In this document: piece by piece, positions 6,133 through 64,000 of the stretch
How the letters are laid out: every line of letters starts with the position of its first letter
Numbering within the stretch: position 1 is the stretch's first letter
Source of the DNA: Medicago truncatula
Taxonomy: Eukaryota > Streptophyta > Magnoliopsida > Fabales > Fabaceae
DNA: 64,000 nt
Reading direction: 5' to 3'
Assembly (NCBI RefSeq): GCF_003473485.1
Contig: NC_053046.1
Span: forward strand, 33,743,332-33,807,331
Notes under the pieces: model-generated
The model's input: the letters and a program-made list of their open reading frames with translations, nothing else
The model's database searches: none
What the model was told of the DNA's origin: nothing
Program-made: the position numbers and the translations under genes

Positions 6133-6150
6133 TTCAAAAAAACTCCATAA

Positions 6151-7842
6151 TTAAATGCGACTAATAAGACGCGGCGGCGGTGGTAAGGACAACGATCCCA
6201 TCTTCTTAGCAACCTTTCTAAGCACATGTTTTTGAACCTTTCCGGTTGATGTCTTTGGCAATTCCTTCATAAACACAATTGTTTTAGGCATCATAAAATG
6301 CGGCAACTTCTCTTTACAAAACTCCTTAATCTCATTATCAGTCGGAATATCATTCTTCTTCAATTCATCTTTCAAACTCACAAACCCACACGGCGTCTCC
6401 CCCCAAAAATCATCTGGTCTCGCCACCACCGCCGCCTCCTTAACCGCCGAATGCATATACAAAACCCCCTCAACCTCCACACTACTCATATTCTCTCCGC
6501 CACTTATTATCAAATCTTTTGACCTATCTTTAATCTCCAAATACCCATCCTCATGCATAACCGCAACATCACCCGTATAAAACCAACCATTCTTTTTGAT
6601 ACACTGCGATGTGGCAATCTCATCTTTAAAATAACCTAACATAACACATGCACCTTTTACAACGATCTCACCAACGGTTACACCATCATTCTTCACACTT
6701 TCACCAGTGGGTCCCACCACATCAACCTCCGCCACCCCCACCTTCCTCACACCTTGCCTCGCCTTCATCCTCGCCTTCTCCGTTGCCGGAAACCTATCCC
6801 ATTCTCTCTTCCAAGCACACGACACAATCACCCCAATCACCTCCGTCATTCCAAATCCATGACTAACCTCAAACCCTAACCTCTCCGCACGTGTGAGAAT
6901 CGCCGTTGGAGGTGACGATCCTCCCGTTAAAACATGAACCGGTTTTTTTAACGGTTCAGTTTTGTTGAAGTTTGACAGCATGTTAAGAACAACCGGTGCA
7001 GCACACATGTGTGTTACACCATGAGATTCAATCAAAGTATAGATCGTCGGCGCGTCTGTCCTACGCGTGCAGATATTAATTCCTCCAACTGCAGCCATTG
7101 CCCACGGGTAGCTCCATCCATTAGAATGAAACATCGGTAATGTCCACAAGAAAACCGGTTGAACCGGAACTGACCAGTCAATGAGAGAATCAAGAGAAAC
7201 AATGAACGTTGCTCTGTGACAATGCACTACACCTTTCGGAGACGACGTCGTTCCGGAGGTGTAGTTTAACGTAATTGGATCCCACTCTGAGTCAGGTCGG
7301 ATCCATTTGAAATATGGATCACCCTTTGCTACAAGACCCTCATAGGTGTTGATAATGTTTACGTTTTTTGGAAGTGGAGGAATCTGGTGCGGTGCTAGGG
7401 TTTCATCCATTATGAGGACGAGCTTAGGTTGTTGGATGTTTGTTGGGAATAAAGAGAGAGCATTGAGGGTAAGAGAAAGAGAGAGAATGTCAACAAAAAT
7501 GAGTTTTGATTCACTGTGGATGAGAAGAACGGAGAGGGTTTTGTGGTCAAGTCGGAAGTTGAGGTTATTGAGAATGGCGCCGGACATTGGAACGGAGAAA
7601 TGAAGCTCGTACATGGCCGGAGTGTTGGGGGAAAGGACGGAGACGACATCGCCTTTTTGGATGCCGAGGGAAGAAAGTGATGAAGCAAGTTGAAGACATC
7701 TTTTGTGGGTTTGAGACCAAGTGAATGAGGTATTGTTGTATATGATTGAAATGGAGTTGCCATAGACAGTGGCTGCTCTTTCTAAGAAGGTGAGTGGGGT
7801 TAGAGCCGTTGAATTTGCTTGGTTTCTGGTTAACTGGTTCAT
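6151..7842 (-). CDS. Acyl-activating enzyme / acyl-CoA ligase, copy 1 (peroxisomal, SRI end)
   Basis: An intronless 563-residue member of the ANL (AMP-binding) superfamily, closest in character to plant AAE and carboxyl-CoA ligases. These activate a carboxylic acid with ATP to an acyl-AMP and then transfer it to CoA. Visible motifs are the P-loop YTSGTTSSPKG (194-204), the region with HGFGMTEVIG (328-337), YTGD (422-425), the hinge KDRSKDLIISGGEN, and the catalytic lysine region PKTSTGK (Lys about 534). The C-terminal SRI is a plausible plant PTS1, so a peroxisomal matrix location is inferred. Full length for the family. It is the inverted near-twin of the gene at 14156-15847 but has Phe instead of Tyr in the A5 motif and Val-Ile after Thr-Glu. 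Substrate unknown. Confidence 0.93.
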   Translation of the reverse strand: MNQLTRNQANSTALTPLTFLERAATVYGNSISIIYNNTSFTWSQTHKRCLQLASSLSSLGIQKGDVVSVLSPNTPAMYELHFSVPMSGAILNNLNFRLDHKTLSVLLIHSESKLIFVDILSLSLTLNALSLFPTNIQQPKLVLIMDETLAPHQIPPLPKNVNIINTYEGLVAKGDPYFKWIRPDSEWDPITLNYTSGTTSSPKGVVHCHRATFIVSLDSLIDWSVPVQPVFLWTLPMFHSNGWSYPWAMAAVGGINICTRRTDAPTIYTLIESHGVTHMCAAPVVLNMLSNFNKTEPLKKPVHVLTGGSSPPTAILTRAERLGFEVSHGFGMTEVIGVIVSCAWKREWDRFPATEKARMKARQGVRKVGVAEVDVVGPTGESVKNDGVTVGEIVVKGACVMLGYFKDEIATSQCIKKNGWFYTGDVAVMHEDGYLEIKDRSKDLIISGGENMSSVEVEGVLYMHSAVKEAAVVARPDDFWGETPCGFVSLKDELKKNDIPTDNEIKEFCKEKLPHFMMPKTIVFMKELPKTSTGKVQKHVLRKVAKKMGSLSLPPPPRLISRI

Positions 7843-7918
7843 TGTATATTAAGAGTTTTTCTTGTTCTACTAGTTAGAGATTAGTATAGTACTGCATATT
7901 GTAGTGAGTCATTAGTGT

Positions 7919-14097: not shown

Positions 14098-14155
14098 GTG
14101 ACGACTCAATGCAGTGCAGAGTGTACTAACCAGAACAAAAAACCATTCATATACA

Positions 14156-15847
14156 ATGGACCAGTTAACCAGAAACCAAGCAAATTCAACAGCTCTAACC
14201 CCACTCACCTTCTTAGAAAGAGCAGCCACTGTCTATGGCAACTCCATTTCAATCATATACAACAATACCTCATTCACTTGGTCTCAAACCCACAAAAGAT
14301 GTCTTCAACTTGCTTCATCACTTTCTTCCCTCGGCATCCAAAAAGGCGACGTCGTCTCCGTCCTTTCCCCCAACACTCCGGCCATGTATGAGCTTCATTT
14401 CTCCGTTCCAATGTCCGGCGCCATTCTCAATAACCTCAACTTCCGACTCGACCACAAAAGCCTCTCTGTTCTCCTCATCCATAGTGAATCGAAACTCATC
14501 TTTGTTGACATTCTCTCTCTTTCTCTTACACTCAACGCTCTCTCATTATTCCCAACAAACATCCAACAACCTAAGCTCGTCCTCATCATGGATGAAACCC
14601 TAGCACCAAACCAGATTCCTCCACTTCCAAAAAACGTAAACATTATCAACACCTATGAGGGTCTTGTAACAAAAGGTGATCCAAATTTCAAATGGATTCA
14701 ACCTAACTCAGAGTGGGATCCTATTACGTTAAACTACACCTCCGGAACGACTTCATCTCCGAAAGGTGTAGTGCATTGTCATAGAGCAACGTTCATTGTT
14801 TCCCTTGATTCACTCGTTGATTGGTCAGTTCCGGTTCAACCGGTTTTCTTGTGGACATTGCCTATGTTTCATTCTAATGGATGGAGCTACCCGTGGGCAA
14901 TGGCTGCAGTTGGAGGAATAAATATCTGCGCGCGTAGGATTGACGCGCCGACGATCTACCGTTTGATTGAGTCTCATGGTGTAACACACATGTGTGCTGC
15001 ACCGGTTGTGCTTAACATGCTGTCAAGTTTCAACAAAACTGAACCGTTAAAAAAACCGGTTCATGTTTTGACAGGAGGGTCTTCGCCACCGGCGACTATT
15101 CTCTGTCGTGCTGAGTTATTAGGGTTTGAGGTTAGTCATGGATATGGAATGACGGAGACATGTGGAGTGATAGTGTCGTGTGCTTGGAAGAGAGAATGGG
15201 ATAGGTTTCCGGCGACGGAGAGGGCGAGGATGAAGGCAAGGCAAGGTGTGAGGAGGGTGGGGGTGGCGGAGGTTGATGTGGTCGGACCCACTGGTGAAAG
15301 TGTAAAGAATGATGGTGTAACGGTTGGTGAAATCGTTGTAAAAGGTGCTTGTGTTATGCTTGGTTATTTAAAAGATGAATATGCCACGTGGCAGTGTATG
15401 AGAAAGGATGGTTGGTTTTACACGGGTGATGTTGGGGTTATACATAAGAATGGGTATATGGAGATTAAGGATAGGACAAAAGATGTGATAATAAGTGGTG
15501 GAGAGAATATGAGTAGTGTGGAGGTTGAGGCTGTTTTGTATATGCATCCGGCGGTTAAGGAGGCGGCGGTGGTGGCGAGGCCGGATGAGTTTTGGGGCGA
15601 GACGCCGTGTGCATTTGTGAGTTTGAATGACGAGTTGAAGGAAGAGGAGATACCGACGGAGAAGGAGGTTAAGGAGTTTTGTAGAGAGAAGTTGCCACAT
15701 TTTATGGTGCCTAAGACGGTTGTGTTTAAGGAGGAGTTGCCAAAGACTTCAACTGGAAAGATTCAAAAACATGTGCTTAGAAGGGTTGCTAGGGCTATGG
15801 GGTCCTTGCCAATACTACCACCACTACTACTTCCAAGTCGCATTTAA
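14156..15847 (+). CDS. Acyl-activating enzyme / acyl-CoA ligase, copy 2 (peroxisomal, SRI end)
   Basis: Intronless, 563 residues, nearly identical to copy 1 over its whole length. An in-frame ATG at 14114 would add 14 residues, but the start at 14156 is chosen because copies 1 and 3 begin at the matching M-x-QL. ANL motifs are complete: YTSGTTSSPKG (194-204), HGYGMTETCG (328-337), YTGD, the hinge KDRTKDVIISGGEN and PKTSTGK with the catalytic lysine near 534. It ends in SRI, a plausible PTS1. The A5 motif keeps the usual Tyr and Thr that copy 1 has lost, so this copy looks the more conventional of the two. Expected reaction: ATP-dependent CoA thioester formation on a short or medium carboxylic acid; the actual substrate cannot be told. 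Confidence 0.94.
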   Translation: MDQLTRNQANSTALTPLTFLERAATVYGNSISIIYNNTSFTWSQTHKRCLQLASSLSSLGIQKGDVVSVLSPNTPAMYELHFSVPMSGAILNNLNFRLDHKSLSVLLIHSESKLIFVDILSLSLTLNALSLFPTNIQQPKLVLIMDETLAPNQIPPLPKNVNIINTYEGLVTKGDPNFKWIQPNSEWDPITLNYTSGTTSSPKGVVHCHRATFIVSLDSLVDWSVPVQPVFLWTLPMFHSNGWSYPWAMAAVGGINICARRIDAPTIYRLIESHGVTHMCAAPVVLNMLSSFNKTEPLKKPVHVLTGGSSPPATILCRAELLGFEVSHGYGMTETCGVIVSCAWKREWDRFPATERARMKARQGVRRVGVAEVDVVGPTGESVKNDGVTVGEIVVKGACVMLGYLKDEYATWQCMRKDGWFYTGDVGVIHKNGYMEIKDRTKDVIISGGENMSSVEVEAVLYMHPAVKEAAVVARPDEFWGETPCAFVSLNDELKEEEIPTEKEVKEFCREKLPHFMVPKTVVFKEELPKTSTGKIQKHVLRRVARAMGSLPILPPLLLPSRI

Positions 15848-16384
15848 TCATGCAACATGCTTCCCAATTCCCATTAATGATTTATGCATTTTTGAGATGA
15901 AGAGGGAGAGAATGAGAGAGTATAATGTGGTATGCTGCTGGTTAAGATGGTCTAAAATGGCTCATCAAATTTGATTTATTTCTATATTATTTCAAAGCTA
16001 ATACGTAGGTTTTTTTTTCTTCTTGTATGTATCTTCATGATTCAAGCATTTATATTTTATACCAACTATAGTTTGTGTTTACTTCTTGTATGGGTCTATT
16101 ATTTTAAGGTTGGTGAGATGCAAATTAGACAGATAGTTGCAAGTCTTGGTCCATATGTCTATTTATATGCTTGTGGTATTTATTGACTGATGTGATAACA
16201 CATTTTTGTAATGGAATGTTACAATACATCATGGTACATCCTTAAAAAAACCACATCATAATACATGTGTAAAACATCTTTATGGAAATATGATATGGTA
16301 AGCACACATTAAATTATTATAAACTTTTTTGACAACCAAATAAAAAGAATCATGTTACATAGATTAAATTATTATAAATTTTTG
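15848..16384. other. 3' flank of acyl-CoA ligase copy 2
   Basis: Probably contains the 3' UTR. Short open frames to 16186 (low-complexity, Tyr/Phe-rich) have no support as genes. Confidence 0.35.
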
Positions 16385-18184: not shown

Positions 18185-19171
18185 TGACTCTAGACAGTTG
18201 TAGGGATGATGAAAGATCAAATTCGCTAGTACCATACGACCCCAGGACCACTCATTAACTATGTTGAGGGTCCGTTGAGGCTCTGGAAATATCAGCCCTA
18301 TATGTTTGTTTCTCTAGTCACTGAATAATATGCATTCGATCTAATATAGTAAGAAAGTATGTATGCAACACCTCTGGTGGTAAACTCTGTCATTCTCCCT
18401 CCCAACTACATTTTCCAATTGGATTCCTTATTGAGATGATCCTCAAATATTTTCTTCAACCAAGCAAATCCAATGTGAGCACCCTTCATGTTCTTATGCA
18501 GTAGCAACATCAACTTCATCAACACCAAGAAACTCAATCATAAGCATAGCACATTTCTCATGGGACAATTAAGCCATATGATTAACCAACTTGTCAAGTG
18601 TTAGGATGTGTATAAGACATGACACATCACTTAGCGTGATGGTCATCTCACTAATTGGTAGGTGGAAGCTTCGAGTCTCCTCATGCCACCACTCATCCAG
18701 CATTGTACATAGGCTTGAATTCACACTCATGAAAGGTGTCACAAGAAGTGAAGCAAGACTGGAAGCATGCACAATATTCCAAAATCCAATCTAGAAGCAT
18801 CTTAGACGTGGCAACTCCAAAACACTTATCTTCTTGTCATGTCTAATGCATTGGAGTACACGTTCACGACTCTAAAATACAAAAAATAGTTAAATAAATG
18901 TAAATTAAAATAATCACATGAATTTGAAAATCATTTGAATTTGACTAAGATAATTATACTATTCGTCATCCTGAACCTTGTACTGCTGCTCAGGCATGTA
19001 GGGTCAACCACTTGTGATAGGCCCGTATGCAAGGCGGTGCTCGTCTGTGAGGTTTGTATCACATTGTAGCGCCTATCCCTACATTGACCCCTTTTAGAAA
19101 GAGGATTTGTCGCAGTATTCTCTTTGGGTACGCTGCTAGTTTGGGTTGGCTTGCCTAGCCTTAGCTTATCT
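18185..19171 (-). pseudogene. Plant mobile domain (MAIN/MAIL-like, transposon-related) pseudogene
   Basis: Conceptual minus-strand translation gives successive blocks typical of plant mobile domain proteins: an N-terminal stretch starting MADNLDKLRLGKP (near 19170), LDEWWHEETRSFHLPISEMT and ITLSDVSCLIHI (18590-18700), FLGVDEVDV then KGAHIGFAWLKKIFEDHL (18430-18520), and NEWSWGRMVLANL (18215-18260). The blocks lie in different frames, with stops and frameshifts between them (for example after DVATA, and a stop near 18790). The gene cannot encode the full domain. Such domains occur in MuDR-type transposons and in domesticated MAIN-like proteins; which of these this derives from is not decidable here. 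Confidence 0.7.
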
Positions 19172-21885: not shown

Positions 21886-23574
21886 TCACATGCGACTTTT
21901 TGTTGGTGGTCCAACATCCTTCCTGAGTGGTCCCATATCCTTAGCAATCTGTCTAAGTACAAATTTCTGAATTTTCCCGGTAGAAGTCTTTGGAAGCTCA
22001 TCTTTAAACACCACCGTTTTTGGAACCATATAATGCGGCAAATTCTTCCTACAGTACTCAACTATCTCTTTCTCCGTTGGTATATCCCTTTCCTTCAACC
22101 CTTCTTTCAAACTCACAAAAGCACACGGTGTCTCCCCCCAAAACTCATCCTCCCTCGCCACCACCGCCGCCTCATTCACCGCCGGATGTCCATACAAAAC
22201 CGACTCAACCTCCACACTACTCAAATTCTCACCACCACTAATAATCACATCTTTTGACCTATCTTTTATCTCTAAATACCCATCTTCATGCATCACACCT
22301 ACATCACCAGTGTAAAACCAACCCTTCTTAAAACAATTTTTTGTTCCTTCACTATCTTTCAAATACCCTAACATAACACAACCACCTCTCATAACAACTT
22401 CACCAAGCGTTGCACCATCACGTTTTACACTTTCACCACTTGGACCCACTACATCAACCTTTGTCATCCCTAGGGTTCTCACTCCTTGCCGTGACTTCAA
22501 CCTTGCTCTCTCCGTCGCCGGTAACAAATTCCATTTCTTCTTCCATGTACAACAAACCACCAATCCACCGGTCTCCGTTAGCCCGTAACCATGACTCACT
22601 GTAAACCCTAAAGCTTCTGTACGGTGGAGTACTGCCGCAGGTGGCGGTGCTCCAGCTGTTAAAATATGGACAGTTTTTTGCAACGGTTTATTATCAGGTG
22701 AGTTAGTTAACATATTAAGAACCACCGGAGCACCGCACATGTGTGTCACGTGGTGTTTTCTGATGAGAGAAAAAACAATTTCAGCGTCGAATTTTCTTAC
22801 ACAAATGTTTGTTCCACCAACAGCTGCAATCCCCCACGGGAAGCTCCACCCGTTAGCATGGAACATAGGTAGCGTCCATAGATAAATCGGTTGTTTTGGT
22901 ACCGTCCATTCGATTAAAGTATCGACGGTTACGATGAAAGCTCCACGGTGGGAATGAACTACACCTTTTGGTGATGACGTTGTTCCGGAAGTGTAGTTGA
23001 GTAACATTGGGTCCCACTCTGAGTTTGGATATACCCAGTTAAAATTTGGATCACCGGAAGCCATTAGATCTTCGTAAGTTGAAATGAAATCAACTGTGGA
23101 AGATGAAGAAACATTTTCGTATGTTTCAAATGTTTGGTCTTTGATGAGAATAAGGAGAGGTTTATGTTGTTTTGAAGGGAATAAGGATAAAGCTTGGAGA
23201 ACAAGATCACGTGCGGCGATATCCACGAAAACGAGTTTGGATTCGCAGTGGAGGAGGATGTTGGAGATGATACGCGCGTCAAGGCGCGTGTTGATGTTGT
23301 TAAGGATAGCTCCGGTGAAGGGGACGGCGAAGTGGAGTTCATACATGGCGGGGATGTTGGGAGCGATGACGGAGACGACGTTGCCGCGGCGGATACCTAA
23401 GGAGGTGATGGCGGAGGCAAGTTGGAGGCATCGTTTGTGGGTTTGAGACCATGTGAAAACGGTGTCGTTGTAGATGATGGAAGGTGTGTTGGGGTAGATT
23501 GTTGAAGTTCTTTCTAAGAAGGTGAGAGGGGTGAGTGGAGAGTTGTTTGCTTGGGTTGGTTTTAGTTGGTCCAT
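21886..23574 (-). CDS. Acyl-activating enzyme / acyl-CoA ligase, copy 3 (peroxisomal, SRM end)
   Basis: Intronless, 562 residues, clearly paralogous to the other two ligases but much more diverged. Motifs: YTSGTTSSPKG (194-204), HSHRG as in most plant family members, HGYGLTETGG (328-337), YTGD (421-424), the hinge KDRSKDVIISGGEN (437-450) and PKTSTGK with Lys534. It ends KSRM; SRM is an established plant PTS1, so import into peroxisomes is likely. It retains the consensus at positions where copies 1 and 2 changed (Ser for Cys in H-x-HR, Gly after it), suggesting that it is closer to the ancestral enzyme of the cluster. Substrate unknown; known relatives activate short-chain, branched or aromatic carboxylates. 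Confidence 0.94.
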   Translation of the reverse strand: MDQLKPTQANNSPLTPLTFLERTSTIYPNTPSIIYNDTVFTWSQTHKRCLQLASAITSLGIRRGNVVSVIAPNIPAMYELHFAVPFTGAILNNINTRLDARIISNILLHCESKLVFVDIAARDLVLQALSLFPSKQHKPLLILIKDQTFETYENVSSSSTVDFISTYEDLMASGDPNFNWVYPNSEWDPMLLNYTSGTTSSPKGVVHSHRGAFIVTVDTLIEWTVPKQPIYLWTLPMFHANGWSFPWGIAAVGGTNICVRKFDAEIVFSLIRKHHVTHMCGAPVVLNMLTNSPDNKPLQKTVHILTAGAPPPAAVLHRTEALGFTVSHGYGLTETGGLVVCCTWKKKWNLLPATERARLKSRQGVRTLGMTKVDVVGPSGESVKRDGATLGEVVMRGGCVMLGYLKDSEGTKNCFKKGWFYTGDVGVMHEDGYLEIKDRSKDVIISGGENLSSVEVESVLYGHPAVNEAAVVAREDEFWGETPCAFVSLKEGLKERDIPTEKEIVEYCRKNLPHYMVPKTVVFKDELPKTSTGKIQKFVLRQIAKDMGPLRKDVGPPTKSRM

Positions 23575-26219
23575 TGACTTTATTTTCTTGATAATTTGAT
23601 GATGATGGTGGAAGATAAAGTGTGGTGAGTTAATGAATAATGATGGTGGTCCAATAAAATAGATTATCTAAGTGTTGGAGATAAGATAGATGACAAAGTG
23701 AAGGTGGGTGAATGGAGAAGACAAAATGATATAAGTGGTGATACATGTACACCTCCATGTGGCAATACACCTCTTACACCCACACAAAATTCTGACATGT
23801 GGCAAAGAAAAGGGAGAGGAGATGAAAGAGAAAGTATGGTTGTGAGATGAAATTACCAAAATATCCCTAATGCATGTGGTGTACAATAAGGTGTATGATT
23901 AAAGGGTGTTCATGTAACATTTTCCAAATGATATACTAGTAGTAGTGATGTCCGTGATGATGTGTATATTGGTTGGAGAGATATTATTAGACACGTCATT
24001 CACCAATTTTACATCTCCAAGATAAATGACATTTGTATAAATTATTTTTGGACAATTTTTAAGTTAACTTCTTTGTATTGATGTTATTTTTTTTTTTTAG
24101 ACGGATATCATTCGCCTTCAATTACGAAGATTAATTATTTAAACATTGTGAGATTTAAATGGACGATAAATTCTCTTTAAAGAATTTTAACTTTGGATCA
24201 TGTTTAAGGCTCGGTTCGAACACATAATCTTTTTTATATTGGCGATATATTTTTACTATTCACTCCGTCCCATAATACTTGACACAATTGTTTTTATTAC
24301 GCATGTTAATGCATAATTTTGAGCGTAAATATCTTGAATAATATATTAAAAAAATTATGAAAATTTGATATTTTGAAAATACTCATCGAGACAAATTTAA
24401 CGATATCTTATATGATATTATTTATCTTTGTATATTAGTAGAAAAATATGGTCAAAATAAGTTATGTTAAAATTACACATTTTCAAATGGGTCATCTATT
24501 TTTGGACGGGGGGAGTATTTTACACCCTCAATTCCTTTTTGTGTGTATTTTTAGTGTGTTTTTTCGTTCCTATTTAACTGTCTTTTTTGTATTTTAAGGG
24601 TACGATTTGCCAATTATACCCTTTATCAATTACTCATTTTTTTTCAATAAAACTAATTAATGCTATCTATTTGGAAAATTAAAGTTTGTTTTTTTAAACA
24701 AAGTTTTTTTCTTTTAAGACAAAGTTTGTTTCTTGTTATCTTCAAATTTAAATAAAATTTTGTTACAAACAATGGTTCTAAAAAGAGTTAAAATTCTAAA
24801 AATAAGATGAATAACAATTGTTAAAAGTTTCAAGTGCAAAGTAAAACAACAAATTTGAGAGAAGAAAAATCAAAGACTCCATGAATGTTCAAAAGGAAGA
24901 AAAAGTGAAAGACTCGTTAGAACTGTGGATGAGAGATGAAGAGGGAGAAATATGAATTTGTTGGAGAAAAAGATAATAAGTGACAATTGTTTGTTTTGGG
25001 AGAGAAAGTGCGTACAAAAATAGAAATTTGTTGAAGAAAAAGATAATAACTGACAATTGTTTATTACGATAAAAGATAACATATTAAATTTATTGGAAAG
25101 ATAAAGTGTTTGCGAAAAAATATGAATTTATTGTTGGATTAAAATGAGGGTATAATAGAAAGAAAATGTGCAAAAATACAAATCGCTATTTTGATGGTAA
25201 TTTTCTTAAAAGATACTTAAAATGAAACAAAGGGCGTTTTTTTTTTATTATTTTTACCTAAAAAAAATATATGTAAAAAGAGTTGTCCTCAAAATGTCTC
25301 GTGAATGCGTGTATGAATAATTCCTTTGGTCACTATGATAAACAAAAGATGTTTTTTAAAGTTCATTAAATATTTGATTTATTTGATCAATTATATAGAT
25401 TAGATATAATAATTTTTCAATAAACAAAAACAATTAATTTTTACTTATAATAATAATCAAAACTTACACTTTTTTAAAAAGAGAACAGAGGTTAAGAGAG
25501 AAGAGGTACAACTTGGATGGATGACGACATATACAAATTTGATATTTTATTATTAATTAAAATGATCCGATATGTTATACTCAAAAAAGTCCAAATGAAT
25601 GAGTCAAAACTATATGAAGTACCGTAAAGGACAAATATTTCGCTGCTAGATTTTTATTTAGATTTTGATTCCATGCAATCTAGTTCCAATACAATGAAGG
25701 ACAACTTCATTAATCGTTCAAGTTTTTCGATGGAGCTTCCTATCCTAGCAAGGGGAGGTTTTATCCTTTCATCGAGCGAGAATTCGACTATGTCTGGTTT
25801 TGTGAATCCCTCAAATCCTTATGGTTGATAAATTTGGTGTCATTTTCTTGTGTTACTAAATTTTGTTGCCCAATTATCATTTTTGGTTATTGGCTGATGA
25901 CTTCCTTGGTCGATCCACTCATGATGGTAACTTTCTTTTCCTTGACATATATATCAATTCTTTAAATCTAACTTGTCTCATAAACTTGATATGAATGTTA
26001 CTTTTGACGGCCAGTTCCAACTTCACATGGAGGAGTTGAAACTACAATACTCCTTATCGGTATTTGTTTCTCTTAATCTCAATTTTCCTTCATTTGCCTT
26101 GACATACTTGTTGACATGTTTTTCTTTCGATCGAAACTGCATTACCCAAACCTTTCCCTGCTCCCGACACTAGTGGGAAGGATGCTGACAAGTAATTCAA
26201 GGGCATTGACAAATCTAAG
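23575..26219. other. Gene-free intergenic stretch
   Basis: The first few hundred bases are the promoter side of ligase copy 3. The rest is AT-rich, with a MITE (24258-24517) and an imperfect internal duplication around 24850-25080 (ttgttggagaaaaagataataa.tgacaattgttt twice). No supported gene. Confidence 0.4.
24258..24517. mobile_element. Stowaway-like MITE
   Basis: The left end cactccgtcccataatac and right end tttttggacggggggagta are inverted and typical of Stowaway elements. Length is about 260 bp. The TA duplication is damaged on the left. Confidence 0.6.
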
Positions 26220-32100: not shown

Positions 32101-33269
32101 TCTCAGTCTTCGTTGTTTTATATTGCGCTTTTATTCCTTAAATATGATTGAACTATGGAACCATTTGGTAGTAGGATTTCCAAGTTTCAAGATATATCTA
32201 CATATGGACAAACATACATGGTAAACACGCACTTTGTTTTGATATTGATTCATGTGAGGCAATGTTGTATTTGATATTTAATTAAGCTGGAAATTAACCC
32301 CATTAGCTGCACATTATGTAATCTATAGATATTTAGGAATGTATGTATTGAATGTCAATGGGGACAAAAATGTTGAGGTTGACTCACAGTCCTTCAATCC
32401 TTTTTGATATTTGAAATTTGGATACTCTAAAGGCATTGATCTTGTTGTGTGTATTAGTCCTTTAGTTCTTTTTCGATACTTGAAAATTTGAAAATTCAAC
32501 TTGAAATGGACTTAGAATCTGTAATTTTATTTCTTTAATGTGTGTGATGCTGCATTTGTCATATTAGTTTTGCCAACTGTTTTGGTGCAAAATCGCAGGG
32601 ATATATGTTGGTGATGGAATGGTGCTCCACTTTACAAGGGGAGGAGGGCAAGAAATTGGAACAGGAACAGTGTTGGACCGTTTCCTTTGCAGTTCATCAC
32701 CCTCCAATGGCACCGACACTCCATGCCCAAAATGTGGTGACCAAAACAAGACTGATGGTGTCGTTTCTTCCTGTTTGGATTGTTTTCTCTCTGGTGATAA
32801 TCTTTACCTCTTTGAGTACGGCGTCTCAGCTGCATATTTTCTAGCCAAAGCCCGAGGTGGAACTTGCACCCTTGCAGTTTCTGATCCAACTGAAGATGTC
32901 CTTCGCCGCGCTTCATTTCTTTTTGAAAATGGATTTGGCGGTTACAATGTTTTCAATAATAACTGTGAAGACTTTGCAATTTACTGCAAAACTGGTCTGC
33001 TTATCATCACAAGCATCAGTGTAGGCCGTAGCGGACAAGCTGCGTCTTGCTTGGCAGCTGCTAGTGCTGTGATTTCTACACCACTTCGTTTTATGACGAC
33101 TAGTTTTAGTGGCTTGGCTGCGGTTGGCTACGGCATGTACTGTGTCAGCCGATTCGTTTCCGATATTGGAGTTCGCCGCGATGTTTCCAAAGTTCCGGTG
33201 GAAAAGCTTGTAGCTTTACCCGACATAGATGAACCTGAGAAGACACCTGAGGTGACCAAAGAAGATTAG
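29122..33269 (+). CDS. LRAT (NC) domain protein, LEAD-SENSITIVE 1-like
   Basis: Two coding exons, 29122-29215 and 32599-33269, joined by a 3383-bp GT-AG intron in phase 1, giving 254 residues. Exon 1 starts MGVFSNKIDHEQLNPGDHIY. The junction forms the conserved HHGIYVG motif, followed by LHF (second His, residue 42) and NNCEDFA (Cys154). These are the His, His and Cys positions of the LRAT/H-RASLS-like thiol fold of the NlpC/P60 group. An inserted CPKC..CLDC (Cys74, 77, 90, 93) could bind zinc and is typical of the plant proteins as far as I recall. The C-terminal part (about 160-220) is hydrophobic and Ala-rich, so membrane association is possible. Biochemical activity in plants is unclear. 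The start is fixed by the family's N-terminal pattern. Confidence 0.9.
29745..30295 (-). mobile_element. TRIM retrotransposon remnants (three LTR copies) inside the LRAT intron
   Basis: Three related segments of about 115-130 bp (29750-29876, 29960-30073, 30158-30285) share gaktTgtaaggt, ccac..ataaacacattttt, ggcttt.tctcat and agactcttaacacac. On the minus strand the rightmost LTR is followed by TGGTATCAGAG (primer site for initiator tRNA-Met, near 30148-30158), a short spacer, a purine tract gcgtgaggggg and the next LTR beginning TGTGTTAAGAG. This is the layout of a TRIM. The extra LTR suggests recombination or a second insertion. Confidence 0.7.
30430..30640 (+). repeat. About 45-bp tandem repeat in the LRAT intron
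   Basis: Three to four units of gtggttcaatcgtggtactgt plus cantggtttggttatttga in direct order. Non-coding. Confidence 0.7.
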
Positions 33270-35347: not shown

Positions 35348-35636
35348 TCAAAGATATCTTCCAACAGTAACACATTTCTGTTTAATGCACCTAATAGCAA
35401 AAAGGAATGAATAGTTTGGTGGACAATCAATTTCTGATTGACACGCAATATACGCTGTAATGGAAAAAGACAATAAAACAATTTTAATAAACATGATTTA
35501 AGATTGTGTGCAATCTATGATAAAGAAGGAATTTTTAGAAGGATAAACAAAATGGCTTACCACCAACTTTCGTTGTGACAAGAAACAAGGAAAGCAGTAA
35601 AATCATAGTATAAACAAACTTGATAATTTCTGCCAT
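35348..35636 (-). CDS. NCR (nodule-specific cysteine-rich) peptide, four-cysteine type
   Basis: Two exons on the minus strand, 35636-35561 and 35454-35348, with a 106-bp GT-AG intron in phase 1; 60 residues. Exon 1 encodes MAEIIKFVYTMILLLSLFLV.., the highly conserved NCR signal peptide. Exon 2 encodes a short mature peptide with C-x5-C (CQSEIDC), 11 residues, then C-x4-C (CIKQKC), ending VTVGRYL. The Cys spacing, the small intron after the signal peptide and the length all match the family. NCRs are secreted into symbiosomes of nodule cells and push rhizobia towards terminal differentiation; the mature peptide here has a slight net positive charge by count. No frame defects are seen. Specific role and expression are unknown. 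The exons are too short to stand out as an open frame. Confidence 0.88.
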
Positions 35637-35689
35637 TTCCCCCCCTTTTGCTTGTAAAAAAATATAATATGATTTGATATATTTATAGT

Positions 35690-35697
35690 GTATAAAG
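35690..35697 (-). promoter_or_regulatory. TATA box of the NCR gene
   Basis: The minus strand reads CACTATAAATATA about 55 bases before the NCR start codon, a suitable distance for a short leader. Confidence 0.55.
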
Positions 35698-37380
35698 TTT
35701 GTGTTCTCTTAAAAATAATTAAATAGTTTGTATCACTTACAAAGTTGTAAAAACCATTTTATAAAATTAAAATTACTATGAAATGTTTCTTAAATATAAA
35801 AATAATTAAATATACTGTGTTTGTCCCTTTAACACACTTAATAAGTAACACAACATATTTGTCAATCATAAGAATTGATTTTCTTTTAACTACCTTTTCA
35901 ATACATTTTATAACCTTTCATAATCCTAAAGAGAGAGAAAATGGACCATGCATAGTAATTTGTTGGAATAATGTACCATGGGCGTGAGAGCATATTTATG
36001 CACAAGTAAAACTTATTGCATGAGCACAACTCAGTCTCCATATATAAGGACAAACTTATTGCATTGTGATATTGTGATTGATCAATGTCACCAATGTCAC
36101 CCAACTCTGTGTCACACAAGTGTTATCCATGTAAGTGGGATGTCAGTATATTTGCTTTGGTAACTTGCCATCACTTTCTTCTGTGTATTATGTGTGTCAG
36201 ACAACTAGCTAATAGTATTGAAAATAGGCACTGTATGATAGCGCAGCAATTGATGCTTGTTACACAAGCAACAGAAGCAGTTTTACGATTCTAGGGTTTA
36301 TGTGAATTTGTGATTTTTGAATTAGAGAGAATTGAGAGAAGAGAGAAATTATGATGAAATTGTTATTGATTTTAATGAAAATATATAAAGGAGGTAGCTT
36401 ATATACAATGTCTAGCTAAGGAGGTTGAAGCACAAGCAATGTAACAAACTCTAGATCTTATTTGCTAACCTCTAACAAACTTGTAACAAACTTCATAACA
36501 AACTAAAACAAAATGTGATTAATCATTGATTGTGATTATCACTAAAACTAAACTTGAATTAAAACAAACTAACACTGTAGAGCTTTCGGTCGGATTTCGA
36601 TGGGTGTATAATTCAAATCCAATTCTGTCCAATATTATCCGTTGCAAACTGAACTAAGTAAAACCGTTGACCCGCTGACCTGAATTTAACCACCCGAGAC
36701 ACTGTTTTGTTCATCGGATAATCTGGTTTCGGTCGGACCTCGGGTTTTTGTCCAGCCCTAATAGATGGTGCTCGTTGGAAAAACAAGAGAAAATATAAAA
36801 GTGAAAACATATATAGAAACAACGGCAAGAAGCTTGAAATGATGATATAATAACTTGAACAAAAAGAAGATGAAGATGACATGATTAAGATTTCACAAAT
36901 AAATTTAAAACTTATATGGTCGTAGTTAACTTTAGGTATTATTCACCGATTTATGTAAACTAGATGGAAATAGATAAAATACGGTTGGTTTGAAGGCAGA
37001 CACTCATACCCACTCATTGCATTCTTCCGTGTTTGAGTCCCAACCTAAATTTTCAAAACTCCACATTATATTCAACCATTAATTTAGGAGGAAGTCTTAC
37101 ATAATTACAAATATTTAGGCGCATAGAAACGCAAAAATACTAATCTCTTAATTATTTGAAAAATATATATTATTTTATTCTTTTTGCTCTCTAATTTTTC
37201 TCAAGTGTTTGAGTGTGATTAAATAGAGTATGAGTTTCACACTAGTGTACCTTAGTATGTATAGGACTATGATCATCGTGAAAAAAGATACCACAAACTT
37301 CGGAGATTGTAACTATGGTGCATGGATGCCAAAGTACACACAAGTTTATTTTTTCTTTTCAAATGACCAGGTGCACAGAA
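35698..37380. other. NCR promoter side and gene-free stretch
   Basis: Contains a repeat near 36578-36765 whose right end gtccagcccta and ggtcggac words resemble degenerate hAT MITE ends. No gene is supported; frames at 35898-36294 are artefacts. Confidence 0.35.
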
Positions 37381-40564: not shown

Positions 40565-43500
40565 TCAGTATTCAAGTGAGCCTAATGATGGTAGTCCAGA
40601 AACAATGTCGTGAGATTCTGCACCAGTGTTGTTCATCCTTTGTCCAGAACTTGGACCAAGGGATTCTATCGCTTCTTCTCCCATTTTCTGAATATCTTCA
40701 GGAGAAAGTATTTTGATATACCAAACATTATTGACAAATGATCTGCAAGAGGTTATCAAATAACCAAACAACAAAATGTCAAAACTTTAGTCAATTGAAA
40801 TAAATAATTACCTATAGCATATAATATGCATCGGTCTCATATTAAGCGTCGTATAATAAGGTTATGCACATTTTTAAAGAAAATCACTAAATGTACTAAT
40901 TTTTATGATAAAATAAGCTTCATTTACTAAACTACTCTTATTAATAGTAGTTAGTGGAATAGCTAGATTGGTTGATATACAAAAAATAAGGGTATATTAG
41001 TGAAGAAAAAAATAATAATACGTCGGTGGTAATCTAAAATGACATAATATTGGACACAAATATTTTGGATGTGGCACTTAATGTGAGACAGGAAGTACTA
41101 TTGTATAATTTGAACTCTATACTTACTCCCACGGATCGTCTCCAAGGAGAAGAACATCGTTCTCCCTGTCGACAAATACAAGCTGCCAGCCTGATCTAAG
41201 AGGATCTTCAAATTTCCCCTCGATTCCAAACATCTGAGCCAACTCCTCCCGCAGCTCGTGATAGCTGTTGAACCGCGAGATGTCAAGTGAGCGCCCTACT
41301 GAACCTGATTTGTATACCTGTGAAAAAGATAAAAACTAAACAATCAATTTTAAATAAAAGAAAGGCTGAAAAAGCTGCAGCTAATAATAATATATATGAA
41401 TAAGACCTTCACAAATATCGGTGTCTGGTTTTGCGCATCAACTTGCCCTGCACTTTGCAACAACTCCGATGAATCTTGCATGCAAGGATATGGAGAACCC
41501 TGGAAACTAGACTCCCCTAACGGCATTGTCGATGCATCGGCATGAGCAGATGCAGTAGTATAACGAGGGACAGTGGTAGGGAGCAGAAGGCCAGACGAAT
41601 CGATATTGACCCCAAACAGAACAGAATTTTGGGCATCTGAGCTGCAATGTGGCGGTACGATTGATGTATCTCTTCCGGAATACTGCACATGCGACATCGA
41701 ATTGCCAATGGCATCGACCTGCGAAGGTGAATACTTTGAGGCCCATGATTGTTGAGGTGACTGTTCAGTCAGCATAGAATGACCACTTCTGGATAAATTC
41801 AACAGATTGCCACTCCCTTCAGAAGAAAGTGAACCAAGCATGTTTTGACCCGGCGAAACCGAAGCAGTAAACTTCATGCCTGAATCTATGAAATCTGGTT
41901 TTGTGTATGATGGTGAAGGCAAACTAGAGTGTTGCTTCTGATGGAGCGGATCACCTTGAATTAAAACTGAATCTTGATAACTGTGTTGCTGTGTTTGGTT
42001 TTCTCGATTGTTGTGCGATTTCTGAAGGATGTGCTGAGAAAGATTCTCCGCCAACCCTTGGCCTTGTGGTTGCATGATATTATTAGTCGATACGGATTGC
42101 TGAATTGCTTGTTGTTGCTGAAGTTGCATGGGACTGAGGTTTCCTGATTGTTGATAATTGAAAGGCTGTTGAAAATTCATCATCTGTTGCCTTAATAGAT
42201 CTACATTCCCTTGGTTCTGCAAACCAGCAGCAGCCAACATGGCTTGGTATTGCTGATTATGATCATTTCCGAGCAAAGTTGGATCGAGTCTTGGCTGCAT
42301 CCAGGGCAACAATCCAGCACCTTGAAAATTCATGGCATTAAGACCATGGTCTCCAGGACCGCCTCGCATCCACATTAGTCCATTAGTTGCCTCATCTCTG
42401 CCATCTGTAACAACATCCTTTGTAAAGAAAGGAGACAAAAGAAGTGTCCTCAAAACCACCACAGCCAACTTTCATAATGAGGGGGTAGGAGACACTAGGA
42501 CAATTAAATGTAGATAAACAAAAGGAAATTTAAAGCCCTTAGGTTTTGGACACGACGGTAGGAGGAAATATGAATCGTAAAAAAATTCATGCGACGGACT
42601 TAAACACTGATTCTACAATGCAGTAGTTAAAAGGAAGATAAGCAAATAAATAAAATTAAAAATATGTACCAAGAAAAGAAGAAGTGCCAGGATGCCATGG
42701 TCGTTTCAATCTAAGGGGAAATAGTGATGGATACATTGGAAATGTAGTTAAAGGCTCAATTTCCCATAACGATACCCGTGGCTGTCTTTCCCCAGCTGTT
42801 GATTCATCCCAACCAACCTATGCACAATGGATGAAACAAGATAAACAGGTTAAAACTTTTAAAACATTGAATGAAATTCGCTAATATATGGAATACAAAT
42901 TACGCTGAAACCTTGAACCTATTAAAACCTAGTCAAGAAGGTGAACTAAAGAACCTATTGAATTTGAACATGATTTGTGTTGCTGTATTCCAGGTTATGT
43001 AAGAAGAAAATAACTAGTTGATCTAGAAGGTGAACTACGATTACAGAAAATATGCAGGTAGTAATCCAGACAAATTACAAAAAACCTCATGGTTTAAGGA
43101 TGAAAAGGAATACAAAGTAAACTTTATGAAACAGGATTAGAGATTTCAAGTGTTTTTGAAAGGTTTATTTATCAAAGACAGGCCCCGTCATGACTAGAGC
43201 TCAAAGTCCCAAGACAGCAAAGTTACCATTGTACTAACATTCTCCCTTAGTCTTATGTTTCGAAGGAGCATTTTCATATAAACTGCTATCCAATTTTATG
43301 TATTACATTGTGATGATCTTGCTTACCTTAACAGACCTCCAATGAGAATTTGGCCACCGAACAGGATCCATGTCACTTATGCTAGTTATAGTACCCATGT
43401 ACCTGCACAAACAAGGTGGCACATGCATAAGTAGAGGGAATATAGTATAGTGCTGTCAAGTGTCAATAACGGATTGCAGAAAATAGAGGAATGCCAAAAT

Positions 43501-46500
43501 TCGGCTAATTGAAATAGCAGGCAGATAGCATTGTGGAAAACTAAAGGAAGCGGCATAGCAGTTGAATAAGTCAATTATATGTCAAAAAAAGGCATGCTTC
43601 ATACAAATAAAAAGGAAATTGACGGAGTACATGGCTTATATATTGAAAGGTTTACATACCAAGGTGAATATGGGGGTAATGCTCCGTAATTCTAGCATTG
43701 CTAACAACACACTCTATTGCTTACATTTTTTAACACTTCTAGTTACATTTTATAACGCGCTTTCTTTTATTGGTTAAAATTCATATGGATCCTACTAAAT
43801 TTATATGGGACCCACATAAACTTTAACCAATAAAAGAGTGTGTTAGAAAGTGCGTTAGAGAGTGTTGCTAGCACTCTTACAAAAACTTGGTCACGATTGC
43901 CACACATGCAGTATCTTCAGTTTTATATTTTAAAAAACCTTAAAAATTGTTTTTTTTCGGTATTTCAGCTGTATGAACTAGCAGAAACCGGAATAGCGGT
44001 CGTTATTGCTTTGATATAAAACTAGAATAGTGTCATGGTTTTCATAGCAGATTCATCAAAATCCACTATGCTATAATGTTATAGGGTCGCTATTTGACAA
44101 TGAGTGCCAAACTATCAAAGTATAATATTTTTCCCTTAATTACAGCTACTAAATTCAAATCCCAAATTTTTTTGAGGCCACGGTAAGAGGCTCACGTCCC
44201 ATAAACAAAACATGTAAGCACAGGCAAAGGCGCAGTACGAGACAATGGCACTTAGCAGATTGGTTTCTATTTTGACTACCTTCAGGCGGTAACTGCTAAC
44301 CTTTTTTGCTCTTCTCAGATCCCAAAATTTAAAGGTGATAAAAAAAATATATGAGCAAATGCTCTCTTTCCAGTTAATTAACCAATAGCCTTGTGGGATC
44401 GGTCCCCTAGATTAGTCGGTTCTTGGACCGGATACCAATTTTTCAAAACAAAAATCAAACAGTAGCCTGGTGGATCTATTTAATAACCTTAAGTCCAAGT
44501 TAAATTTGCCACCTTAGAGAATATAGATGTAGATGCCACATCAATCAATCTCATAATAAAATAAAACAATTTCAAAAGGCATAATTTATGTAATACACAT
44601 TTATGATTATCCTACCAAATAACTATTATGATATACTTTAAAACCATAAATCCAGTTATCAATAAACTTGCCTTCGTAGAGAGTATAGATGCAGATATCA
44701 ATATCAACCTCACAATACATTGGCAATTTAAAAGGTATAGCTTCTGTCATACTACACATCTATAAATATAACTAAAATAATCCTAACAAAATTATGTCTA
44801 CAATGTAAACCAAATCAATATACGTTCAGAGAAAAAATAAATGATGGCAACAAGTACCTGCGGACACTTGATTCTTCAGTCTCAAAAAGCATCCTGAAAC
44901 GCATACCGACAGAAACGCGTGTATGGTACACAGCTTTGATATATTTTGAGAGTGGTATGACGAACTCGGATGGACTAGCCCTGCCGATGATGTAGGTTTC
45001 AAATGATAAGTTATGATTTCTTACAAATAAGTATCAAAAGTATAAATTTAGAAAACAAACACAACCTTGGATTAAAGAACACTGTAAAGCAGCTATTAGT
45101 TGCTGCAGCATGTGCTGCAGCTGCAAGAAGTCCAATGTGCATGCTATCACTTGAAAGAACTGATGATGGCATAACAGTTTGTGGCCTACTGGCACGACGT
45201 ATTCCCAAAAGAAGCTGATTCTTTTCATTCCTATCAAAGAAAATACAGATAATAACAATAAACAAGCAGTTTGCACCATCGATGAGGAATAAAAAGTATT
45301 CAGATTTCAGAAAGGTGGAACAAAATGTATACCAAATGAAAAGCACAGAATCTCCAGCTACTAGTCTTTTTGCACTAACAAATACGCTCCAGCCTGTGGT
45401 AAGAAGGTGTCGTTTTGGCTGTCCTGAAATGATAATGAAGCAATACACATATCATATCACGCATAAATTACAATAAAGCTAACAATCTCAAGTCAAATAT
45501 GAGTGTGATTCGTAATGACATAGGCATAGACGCATAGCAGCTCTAATTTAAAAAATAAAAGGAAAAAAAAAACCACCTAGCTTTATGCTTCTTTTTTATA
45601 ATGGAAACACTAACTTTGAACCAAGAAAAAGGGCAAACATACTATTAACTAAAGTAAATTAAAACGATGGTAGAAAACCAAAAGCTTCTATTTCAAGTAA
45701 GTAGTTATTACATCCAATATCTGTTTTCTTTAGTTAATATTACAAATTATGTGCAATGCAACAAAATTTGTGAGATAATTGACACATAGAAGTTCCACTA
45801 AGGTACCAAATAAAATCTAACATCACTGGCAACGAAGACCAGTGAACCCAAAAGTTGTGTTTGCTAATTTTTTTCTATCAGGTGACTTAGAAGCTTGCTT
45901 GAGCTTCTACGAAATACAATTCAACTTTCACAGACAACAATCAATTCATTCGGCCTTACGTTGAGAGATTACTGGCAGTGTAACGTTGGCCAAGAAGTGG
46001 CAAAGCCAGTAACTCAACTATCTTGTGTTTTTTATATGTTAAATCTTTATAATGTAGAAGGATTTGAATCAATCCCTTTACATATGACCAATTTCCTAAC
46101 AGAATCATTTCACTAATAGACTTTATTGAATGATTCTAAAGTTGTTTATACCTTCTTAAAAAACGTGGTAAAAAGTAAATATCCCAAAGAGACAAAGTGC
46201 GTATTTGGATCATAGTGACCTGGTTCGCGATTGGCTTCAGTATGTGGTACATACGTGGTACGCAACCCTCAAAGTATTAGGTATGTGGGGGGTATACAAA
46301 GTTGGAACGCTATTTCAGTTCATGGTAGGTTCTAATATACTAATGGTAAACTGTGAATTAAAAAATTTATTCAGTTACAAACAACAATAAATTATGATAA
46401 ATATTAACACTATCAATAAAAATTAACTTTGACAAACATAATTGTCTTGTGTTAAATAAATAGATAATTTTTGTTGTAGAATCTATCAATGATTTATGAT

Positions 46501-50129: not shown

Positions 50130-50315
50130 TGAAATGAAACTGAAGAAGAGAATATGAATGTGAAAAAAATACACAGAAAGTGAGTTTGAAGTGTAATGAA
50201 GTAAAGTCCTTGTTTTGTGGCCAATCACTTTCTGATAGAGACACAAGTGAGAGATTTTTGGGTTTGAAATGAAGAGAGAAGAGAGAGAAAGAAAAGTAAA
50301 AGGAAGAGTCTTTGC

Positions 50316-61998: not shown

Positions 61999-62267
61999 TT
62001 ACCTAGAGAAGTTGGTAGTTTCTGACTTGTCCCTTATGCTTAGTTTATTAAATGCTGATTCAGATTCATCTAGTAGTTCAAACTCAAAGCATGCATCCTC
62101 AATAACTTGATCCAATTTCTTGTCCTCATCAGCATTATGAAAACAGTTTCTCTGCTTAGCATCCATAACAACTTTTCTCCACACAGAGTTACTATTAATC
62201 AAAGTTGTTGCATTTCCAACTATCCAAAGGCAATATCTGCAACAAATATAATCAGTTTAAATCAACA

Positions 62268-62311
<44 letters not shown>

Positions 62312-64000
62312 CGACCAAAAAAATAATACTTGAAAGCAACAAAATAATAGCATACCTAGCCCTAGTGATTGCAACATTAGTTCTTTGTCTATTGGAAAGA
62401 AAACCAACTTTTCCACCAAAATTTGATCTAACAGTAGATATTATTATGAGGTCTTCTTCGCCGCCTTGAAAACCATCAACAGAACGGACATTAATCGAGA
62501 AGTTAGGAGCCGAAACCATGTACTGCTTCACTCTCTCTTGGATTTCATGAACTTGCGCCTTGTATGGAGATATGATCCCTATGCTAACTTTATTCCTTGT
62601 CCTTACAAACTCTGCCACAAAAATAAAAAAATTACATAATGTTATGGTATATTATATCATATGGTTAAATATGTATTTAGTTTCTATAAAATACATAATT
62701 TTTCAAGTTTAGCCCCTACATTAATTTTGTCTAATTACAGTCCATTTTATGTTTTCATAGAAACTAAACGATAATTAACCCTACATCATATTATATTTAT
62801 ACTCCAATGCTAAAAATTTGATCAACAAACTTATAGACAGAAGAAAAAGTAAGAGAAATCAACCCTTTTGAATTCTTCCAATAATCTCCGAGATAGCTGC
62901 AGCTTCAATCACATTCTTCAAACTATGATCATGATTACACTGCTCTTTACCCTTAGATATGTTAATGAAAGAGTAGGAACCATACATTTTTCCTCCAAGG
63001 AAACGCTTGTTATAGCTTATTTCTCTTACAATCTGAGAATCAGAAAGTTTCTTATTATAGAACTCTCTACTCGGGAATATGCTAATGGATGGATGCATTC
63101 TGTATTGAACATTAAGCATATGTTTCTTGTATCCCAACGTAGCAAGCCTCTCAAACAAGCTTCTTCCAAATCCAGCCCTATCAGCAATCTGACACAGAAA
63201 CACCATATCATAAGCGATGATAAATATTTCACCAACTCATTTTATCTGTCATGTTAGAAACAATATCTTATTCTTATCACATATTATTCACCACTTTACA
63301 ATATCAGGGACTTACTTTTCTAACAGTACTACAAAATATGTCTTTGTAGTGAACGATTTAGTGGCCGAAAATGTCAAATTGGTCGCTTACATTAGCAAAT
63401 AATAGTTTAAAAGCATCTTCAAATCAGAGTCTCTAAATTGGTCACAAGCTCATTTAGTGGTCGATTTAGATACCGATTTAGCAAGTGATTTGAAATATTC
63501 TGGTCAAAGCCACTTATCAGCAAATTTTAGCAGTAAAACACATGTTTATTGTTATGTAGCTTACTTTATGTTGATTACTTCTTCTACCAAAAACTTGCAA
63601 CAGAAAATAAAAGCAATAATAAAGATATTTTATTAAAGACAGAATAGATTGTTTTGATAAGATAGAAAAAAAAACAGATTATCTTAACTTAGTATAACAA
63701 ATACTATTGTTCAACTAAAATGAGACAGAAAAATTTCTAAGTACCTCGCTTTTGACCATTGCAGGGAGTTGTATCTCATCGCCAACGAGAACACAACGCT
63801 TAAGGCCATTCAATTGCAACGGAATAGCTGATTCACATTCTTTAAGCTGAGCAGCTTCATCAATCACTAAAAATTCCACTTGTGCCATTCCTTCTGAGAA
63901 CAATTTTACACAACTTGAAGCAGTGCATAAAAGAAGGCATGCATTCTTCAAGCAAAATTGTGATATTCCATATTTGGATGTAACTTTAGGAAGCTTAATA
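61999..64000 (-). CDS. SEN1/UPF1-like superfamily 1 helicase, 3' part (runs off the window)
   Basis: Four exons on the minus strand: 64000-63745 (5' end beyond the window), 63188-62864, 62611-62356 and 62236-61999, with GT-AG borders and consistent phase. Motif order is that of the SF1B UPF1/SEN1 family: Walker [19 protein letters not shown] (motif III), [12 protein letters not shown] (motif IV), [17 protein letters not shown] (motif V), and NVAITRARY (motif VI). Walker A must lie to the right of the window. The tail ends [18 protein letters not shown].. to ETTNFSR-stop. Members unwind RNA or RNA-DNA hybrids in the nucleus; plants have lineage-expanded copies of unknown role. The stop overlaps a very good donor (AG|GTAAGT), so an extra 3' exon is possible. 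Confidence 0.88.
62275..62307. repeat. (AT)n microsatellite in a helicase intron
   Basis: 33 bases of alternating A and T inside the last intron, just past the 62356 donor side. Confidence 0.9.

Follow-up and report, generated by a model that had tools for sequence, protein, structure and literature searches.

A two-exon locus of Medicago truncatula with the family profile and five-motif promoter of a four-cysteine NCR gene

In certain legumes, the family of nodule-specific cysteine-rich (NCR) peptides, which are small and secreted, controls nitrogen-fixing bacteria in root nodules, and NCR genes are turned on in infected nodule cells. We asked whether two tiny exons within a 64-kb stretch of Medicago truncatula DNA (the window; all positions are counted from its first letter) make up such a gene, or whether they are better read as a silent copy, as a secreted peptide of another programme or as a chance reading frame.

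Gene model and family profile

The locus lies at 35348-35636 on the minus strand. The initial annotation had given exactly these coordinates and an intron of 106 bp; the strand is an addition of the present analysis. The coding sequence of 183 nt yields a 60-aa pre-peptide, MAEIIKFVYTMILLLSLFLVTTKVGAYIACQSEIDCPPNYSFLFAIRCIKQKCVTVGRYL, and the two-exon layout, in which the intron separates the signal peptide from the mature peptide, is a gene model drawn from the sequence:

35636-35561 (-), exon 1: 76 nt, with the ATG at 35636 and the signal-peptide part MAEIIKFVYTMILLLSLFLVTTKVG
35560-35455 (-), intron: 106 bp, GT-AG, beginning GTAAGC and ending TTACAG
35454-35348 (-), exon 2: 107 nt including the TGA stop, encoding the mature four-cysteine peptide

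The stretch searched has a single AG acceptor, which we paired with each of four GT donors. Of the three alternative donors, one shifts the frame, with loss of the cysteines. The other two keep the frame; their products, 59 and 64 aa long, reach 66.7 and 65.9 bits with the Pfam family PF07127 (Late nodulin), compared with 69.0 bits for the 106-bp intron model, which is mildly favoured because the in-frame alternatives score slightly lower.

A search with NCR models was the check that the initial annotation had called for, with the lack of a match to count against an NCR gene. The 60-aa product matched PF07127 at 69 bits, well over the family's curated cut-off of 30.4 (E 4.6e-19), so that the whole product passes the profile threshold that characterizes group A NCRs. 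Residues 1-53 aligned to profile positions 1-53 of 54 with no net gap, and PF07127 was the sole Pfam family detected at E values up to 1. Exon 1 alone matched positions 1-24 at 39.1 bits, above the cut-off, and the exon-2 peptide alone matched positions 27-53 at 21.7 bits, below it. Exon 1 gives most of the score, and it is chiefly the signal peptide that carries the match. That exon 1 encodes an NCR signal peptide, as first annotated, is thus borne out by its own profile match and by a hydrophobic N-terminus (GRAVY 1.6 for the exon 1 part). Judged on sequence, the PF07127 match is far beyond chance and decisive for an NCR gene.

Other searches added little. An NCBIfam scan of the product returned one match, below its cut-off (E 0.18), and a PADLOC scan returned none. 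Searching PDB sequences with the full product at E values up to 10 gave one unconvincing match, to a lectin (E 0.84), and the exon-2 peptide alone gave no match. Verbatim strings of the peptide, signal peptide included, were not found in open-access papers, supplements aside, a result that says little about earlier annotation.

Promoter motifs and alternative readings

We searched the full window, on either strand, for the five published consensus strings of Medicago truncatula NCR promoters (41-50 bp; PMC3613412), using 20 whole-window shuffles as the null for motif scores. All five motifs had their best matches in the window on the minus strand, no more than 300 bp upstream of the NCR ATG, and all five scores exceeded the maximum of the shuffles:

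35656-35705 (-), NCR promoter motif 3: 45/50 positions; score 29.7, shuffle maximum 10.8
35687-35681 (-), TATA box TATAAAT: 51 to 45 bp before the ATG, inside motif 3
35709-35749 (-), NCR promoter motif 5: 38/41 positions; score 33.8, shuffle maximum 14.3
35752-35792 (-), NCR promoter motif 4: 36/41 positions; score 27.7, shuffle maximum 9.5
35802-35842 (-), NCR promoter motif 1: 37/41 positions; score 33.3, shuffle maximum 13.1
35896-35936 (-), NCR promoter motif 2: 35/41 positions; score 20.9, shuffle maximum 11.7

Read toward the ATG, the motifs follow the order 2-1-4-5-3, with motif 3 adjoining the ATG and containing the TATA box that had already been noted at this locus. A cluster of motifs 1-5 within about 400 bp upstream serves as a mark of group A NCR genes; here 5/5 lie within 300 bp of the ATG. 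Motif 1 includes an ID1-type site, TTTGTCCCTTT, on the opposite strand. Two ID1-type sites and a CTCTTT element occur within 1,000 bp upstream of the ATG; the evening element, AAATATCT, was not found in that stretch.

Among the four best matches listed for each motif, just one outside the NCR promoter beat its shuffle maximum, an isolated match to motif 5 at 18864-18904 (+) (35/41 positions; score 19.1 against a maximum of 14.3). None of the other four motifs had a listed best match nearby. This site is perhaps a relic or an AT-rich chance occurrence.

The five motifs reportedly do not occur in the 1,000 bp preceding any of 33,131 further annotated Medicago genes, and in reporter experiments of the same study a 400-bp upstream segment was insufficient for expression and 1,000 bp was sufficient (PMC3613412). 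The NCR169 promoter is described as sharing this motif order, 2-1-4-5-3, in which motif 3 comes closest to the start; MtAHL1 and MtAHL2, two AT-hook factors, bind a motif-4-like region in it, and 436 bp of this promoter are enough for expression in nodules (PMC9946822). In pea, a separate set of NCR promoter motifs is reported to precede some genes that are co-expressed with NCRs as well (PMC9515463), and the five motifs may be less restricted to NCR genes than published.

The promoter bears first on whether the locus is a silent or decaying NCR copy, its frame still open and its expression lost. NCR genes without reads do exist, numbering 11 of 248 four-cysteine genes in one report (PMC10673856), and the locus appears to stand alone, which also speaks for such a copy: we found no second NCR in the window, either by a six-frame scan for the cysteine pattern or by tblastn of both exons (among the matches listed), although these scans could miss a diverged six-cysteine gene or a single-exon relic. 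Against decay stand the open frame, the consensus splice sites and the TATA box, together with the five promoter motifs, every one of which matches its consensus at 35 to 45 positions. We give a silent copy only a small probability.

Plants have cysteine-rich secreted peptides outside nodules too, and a four-cysteine pattern alone is unspecific; the product could accordingly be a defensin-like peptide of a seed, flower or defence programme, without a role in nodules. The sole Pfam family being PF07127 argues against this reading, as does the reported absence of the five motifs from 88 defensin-like genes without nodule expression (PMC3613412), and we regard it as extremely unlikely.

The cysteine pattern itself was weighed against chance. 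Group A NCRs have the spacing C-x5-C-xn-C-x4-C, and the form C-x5-C-x11-C-x4-C that the initial annotation had read in exon 2 is present in the translated product. It places four cysteines at conserved positions, by which group A NCRs are defined (PMC9515463). In six frames of the 64-kb window this pattern occurred once, at the NCR gene, and a looser version (C-x5-C-x6..22-C-x4-C) likewise matched only there. Of 100 dinucleotide-shuffled windows, however, 2 contained the exact pattern and 10 the looser one, and the pattern alone is therefore weak evidence. Although the exact pattern can thus arise by accident, a chance reading frame is vanishingly improbable here and is already refuted by the PF07127 match (E 4.6e-19) together with an independent five-motif promoter at the right place, in the right order and on the right strand.

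From the profile and promoter evidence, we conclude that the locus is very probably a complete group A (four-cysteine) NCR gene of a legume. Hosts of such genes are expected among IRLC or Dalbergioid legumes, and the match to promoter motifs derived from Medicago suggests a Medicago-like IRLC plant. The first description of it as an intact gene of this kind agrees with the open frame, the consensus splice sites, the PF07127 match and the five-motif promoter. It is an ordinary member, new or already catalogued, of a well-known family, and its interest is that of one well-formed addition to several hundred. The gene model and the complete promoter make nodule expression a firm prediction. Tiny two-exon genes of this sort can be separated from chance by promoter motifs plus profile, the cysteine pattern alone being weak.

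The peptide and its proposed role

The middle of 11 residues, between cysteines 2 and 3, had been singled out as unusual and hydrophobic. It does have 11 residues and is hydrophobic, but mildly so (GRAVY 0.22), and its length is ordinary: since residues 1-53 span profile positions 1-53 without a net gap, the segment is of about the usual family length. The residues between the cysteines are reported to differ among NCR members (PMC9515463). The mature part of about 35 residues, a length that follows from an approximate cleavage position, has a pI of about 8.5 and a net charge of about +1.7. Compared with the most cationic NCRs, this peptide is less likely to be strongly bactericidal, because its charge is modest and no lysine lies between cysteines 2 and 3.

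We modelled the 34 residues encoded by exon 2 in one frame with AlphaFold2 from the single sequence. The model (mean pLDDT 73; pTM 0.38, which is low) has a predicted helix of three residues lying between the first two cysteines, and a predicted two-stranded hairpin, residues 18-23 and 26-31, bearing cysteines 3 and 4. Foldseek against the PDB at E values up to 10 returned two matches (E 6.5 and 9.4), neither below 0.001. The predicted model resembles NCR044 of Medicago truncatula (PDB 6U6G), described as a four-cysteine peptide with a short helix and a C-terminal antiparallel sheet by NMR (PMC8110993); NCR044 was absent from both the sequence and the fold matches, and no NCR chain in the PDB matched the full product or the exon-2 peptide by sequence.

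NCR169 of Medicago truncatula is likewise a four-cysteine secreted NCR, with the promoter order found here and motif 3 by the start (PMC9946822). Both peptides are cationic, NCR169 with a pI reported between 8 and 9. A C-terminal two-stranded sheet was seen in NCR169 by NMR (PMC8110993), and the predicted model of the peptide studied here has a two-stranded hairpin. NCR169 is also reported to carry a mid-peptide cluster of five lysines linked to membrane binding (PMC8110993); a Lys-rich middle that binds negatively charged phospholipids would mark an NCR169-like membrane-active peptide. The peptide studied here has no lysine (and one arginine) between cysteines 2 and 3 and two lysines between cysteines 3 and 4, and may differ from NCR169 in this respect.

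Group A accounts for 97 of 360 NCR genes in pea, where most NCR genes are reported to have two exons, exon 1 carrying the signal peptide and exon 2 the mature peptide (PMC9515463). The same arrangement occurs here, and the exon and intron lengths fall within the published pea ranges (PMC9515463).

Going by the family, infected nodule cells are the most likely site of the gene's expression, and symbiosomes the most likely place where its product acts. Transcription would start near the TATA box of motif 3 in rhizobia-infected nodule cells, and AHL-type factors may act on the motif-4 region, as the family suggests. The pre-peptide would then enter the secretory pathway and lose its signal peptide near residue 25, and the mature part is predicted to form two disulphides. 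The peptide that would reach the symbiosomes is mildly cationic and about 35 residues long; there it would contribute, probably in a partly redundant manner, to bacteroid differentiation or control. NCR peptides are described as using the secretory pathway and as governing the change from rhizobia to bacteroids (PMC10673856). A laser-capture dataset includes some NCR signal in uninfected cells, which its authors think contamination may explain for several genes (PMC4168050).

It is very unlikely that the peptide is one of the few individually essential four-cysteine NCRs with its lysine-free, mildly hydrophobic loop acting otherwise than through the membrane binding of the NCR169 lysine cluster; if it were, its route could be, for example, binding to a specific bacteroid protein. 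The four-cysteine pattern, signal peptide, nodule expression and charge are reported to be inadequate for identifying essential NCRs (PMC10673856).

Neighbouring sequences in the window

Three long, uninterrupted frames, at 6146-7860 (-), 14138-15852 (+) and 21886-23667 (-), each encode an AMP-binding (acyl-activating) enzyme in which both domains are present. The first and second of these frames make up an inverted pair whose members are 91% complementary along 1,715 bp.

Part of exon 2 (35414-35448) matched 50212-50246 over 35 bp (83% match, E 1.6e-4), in the upstream part of a small open frame. The three forward frames at this site lack the four-cysteine pattern. When 461-bp pieces were drawn at random outside the three AMP-binding genes, 36 of 100 matched some other place with an E value as good or better, and 25 of 60 pieces drawn without restriction had a non-self match at E below 1e-3. 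With no cysteine pattern at the site and with 36 of 100 random pieces doing as well, we rejected the match as background.

An LRAT-domain frame at 32568-33269 (+) (PF04970, E 4.9e-22) lies tail to tail with the NCR gene, about 2.1 kb from its 3' end. Pfam identified a B3-domain exon at 45011-45451 (-), and a glutamine-rich frame at 41350-42471 (-) had no significant Pfam match; these two may form one auxin-response-factor-like gene. An AAA_12 helicase-like gene has two exons at 62262-62651 and 62859-63236 (-) and may extend toward the end of the window.
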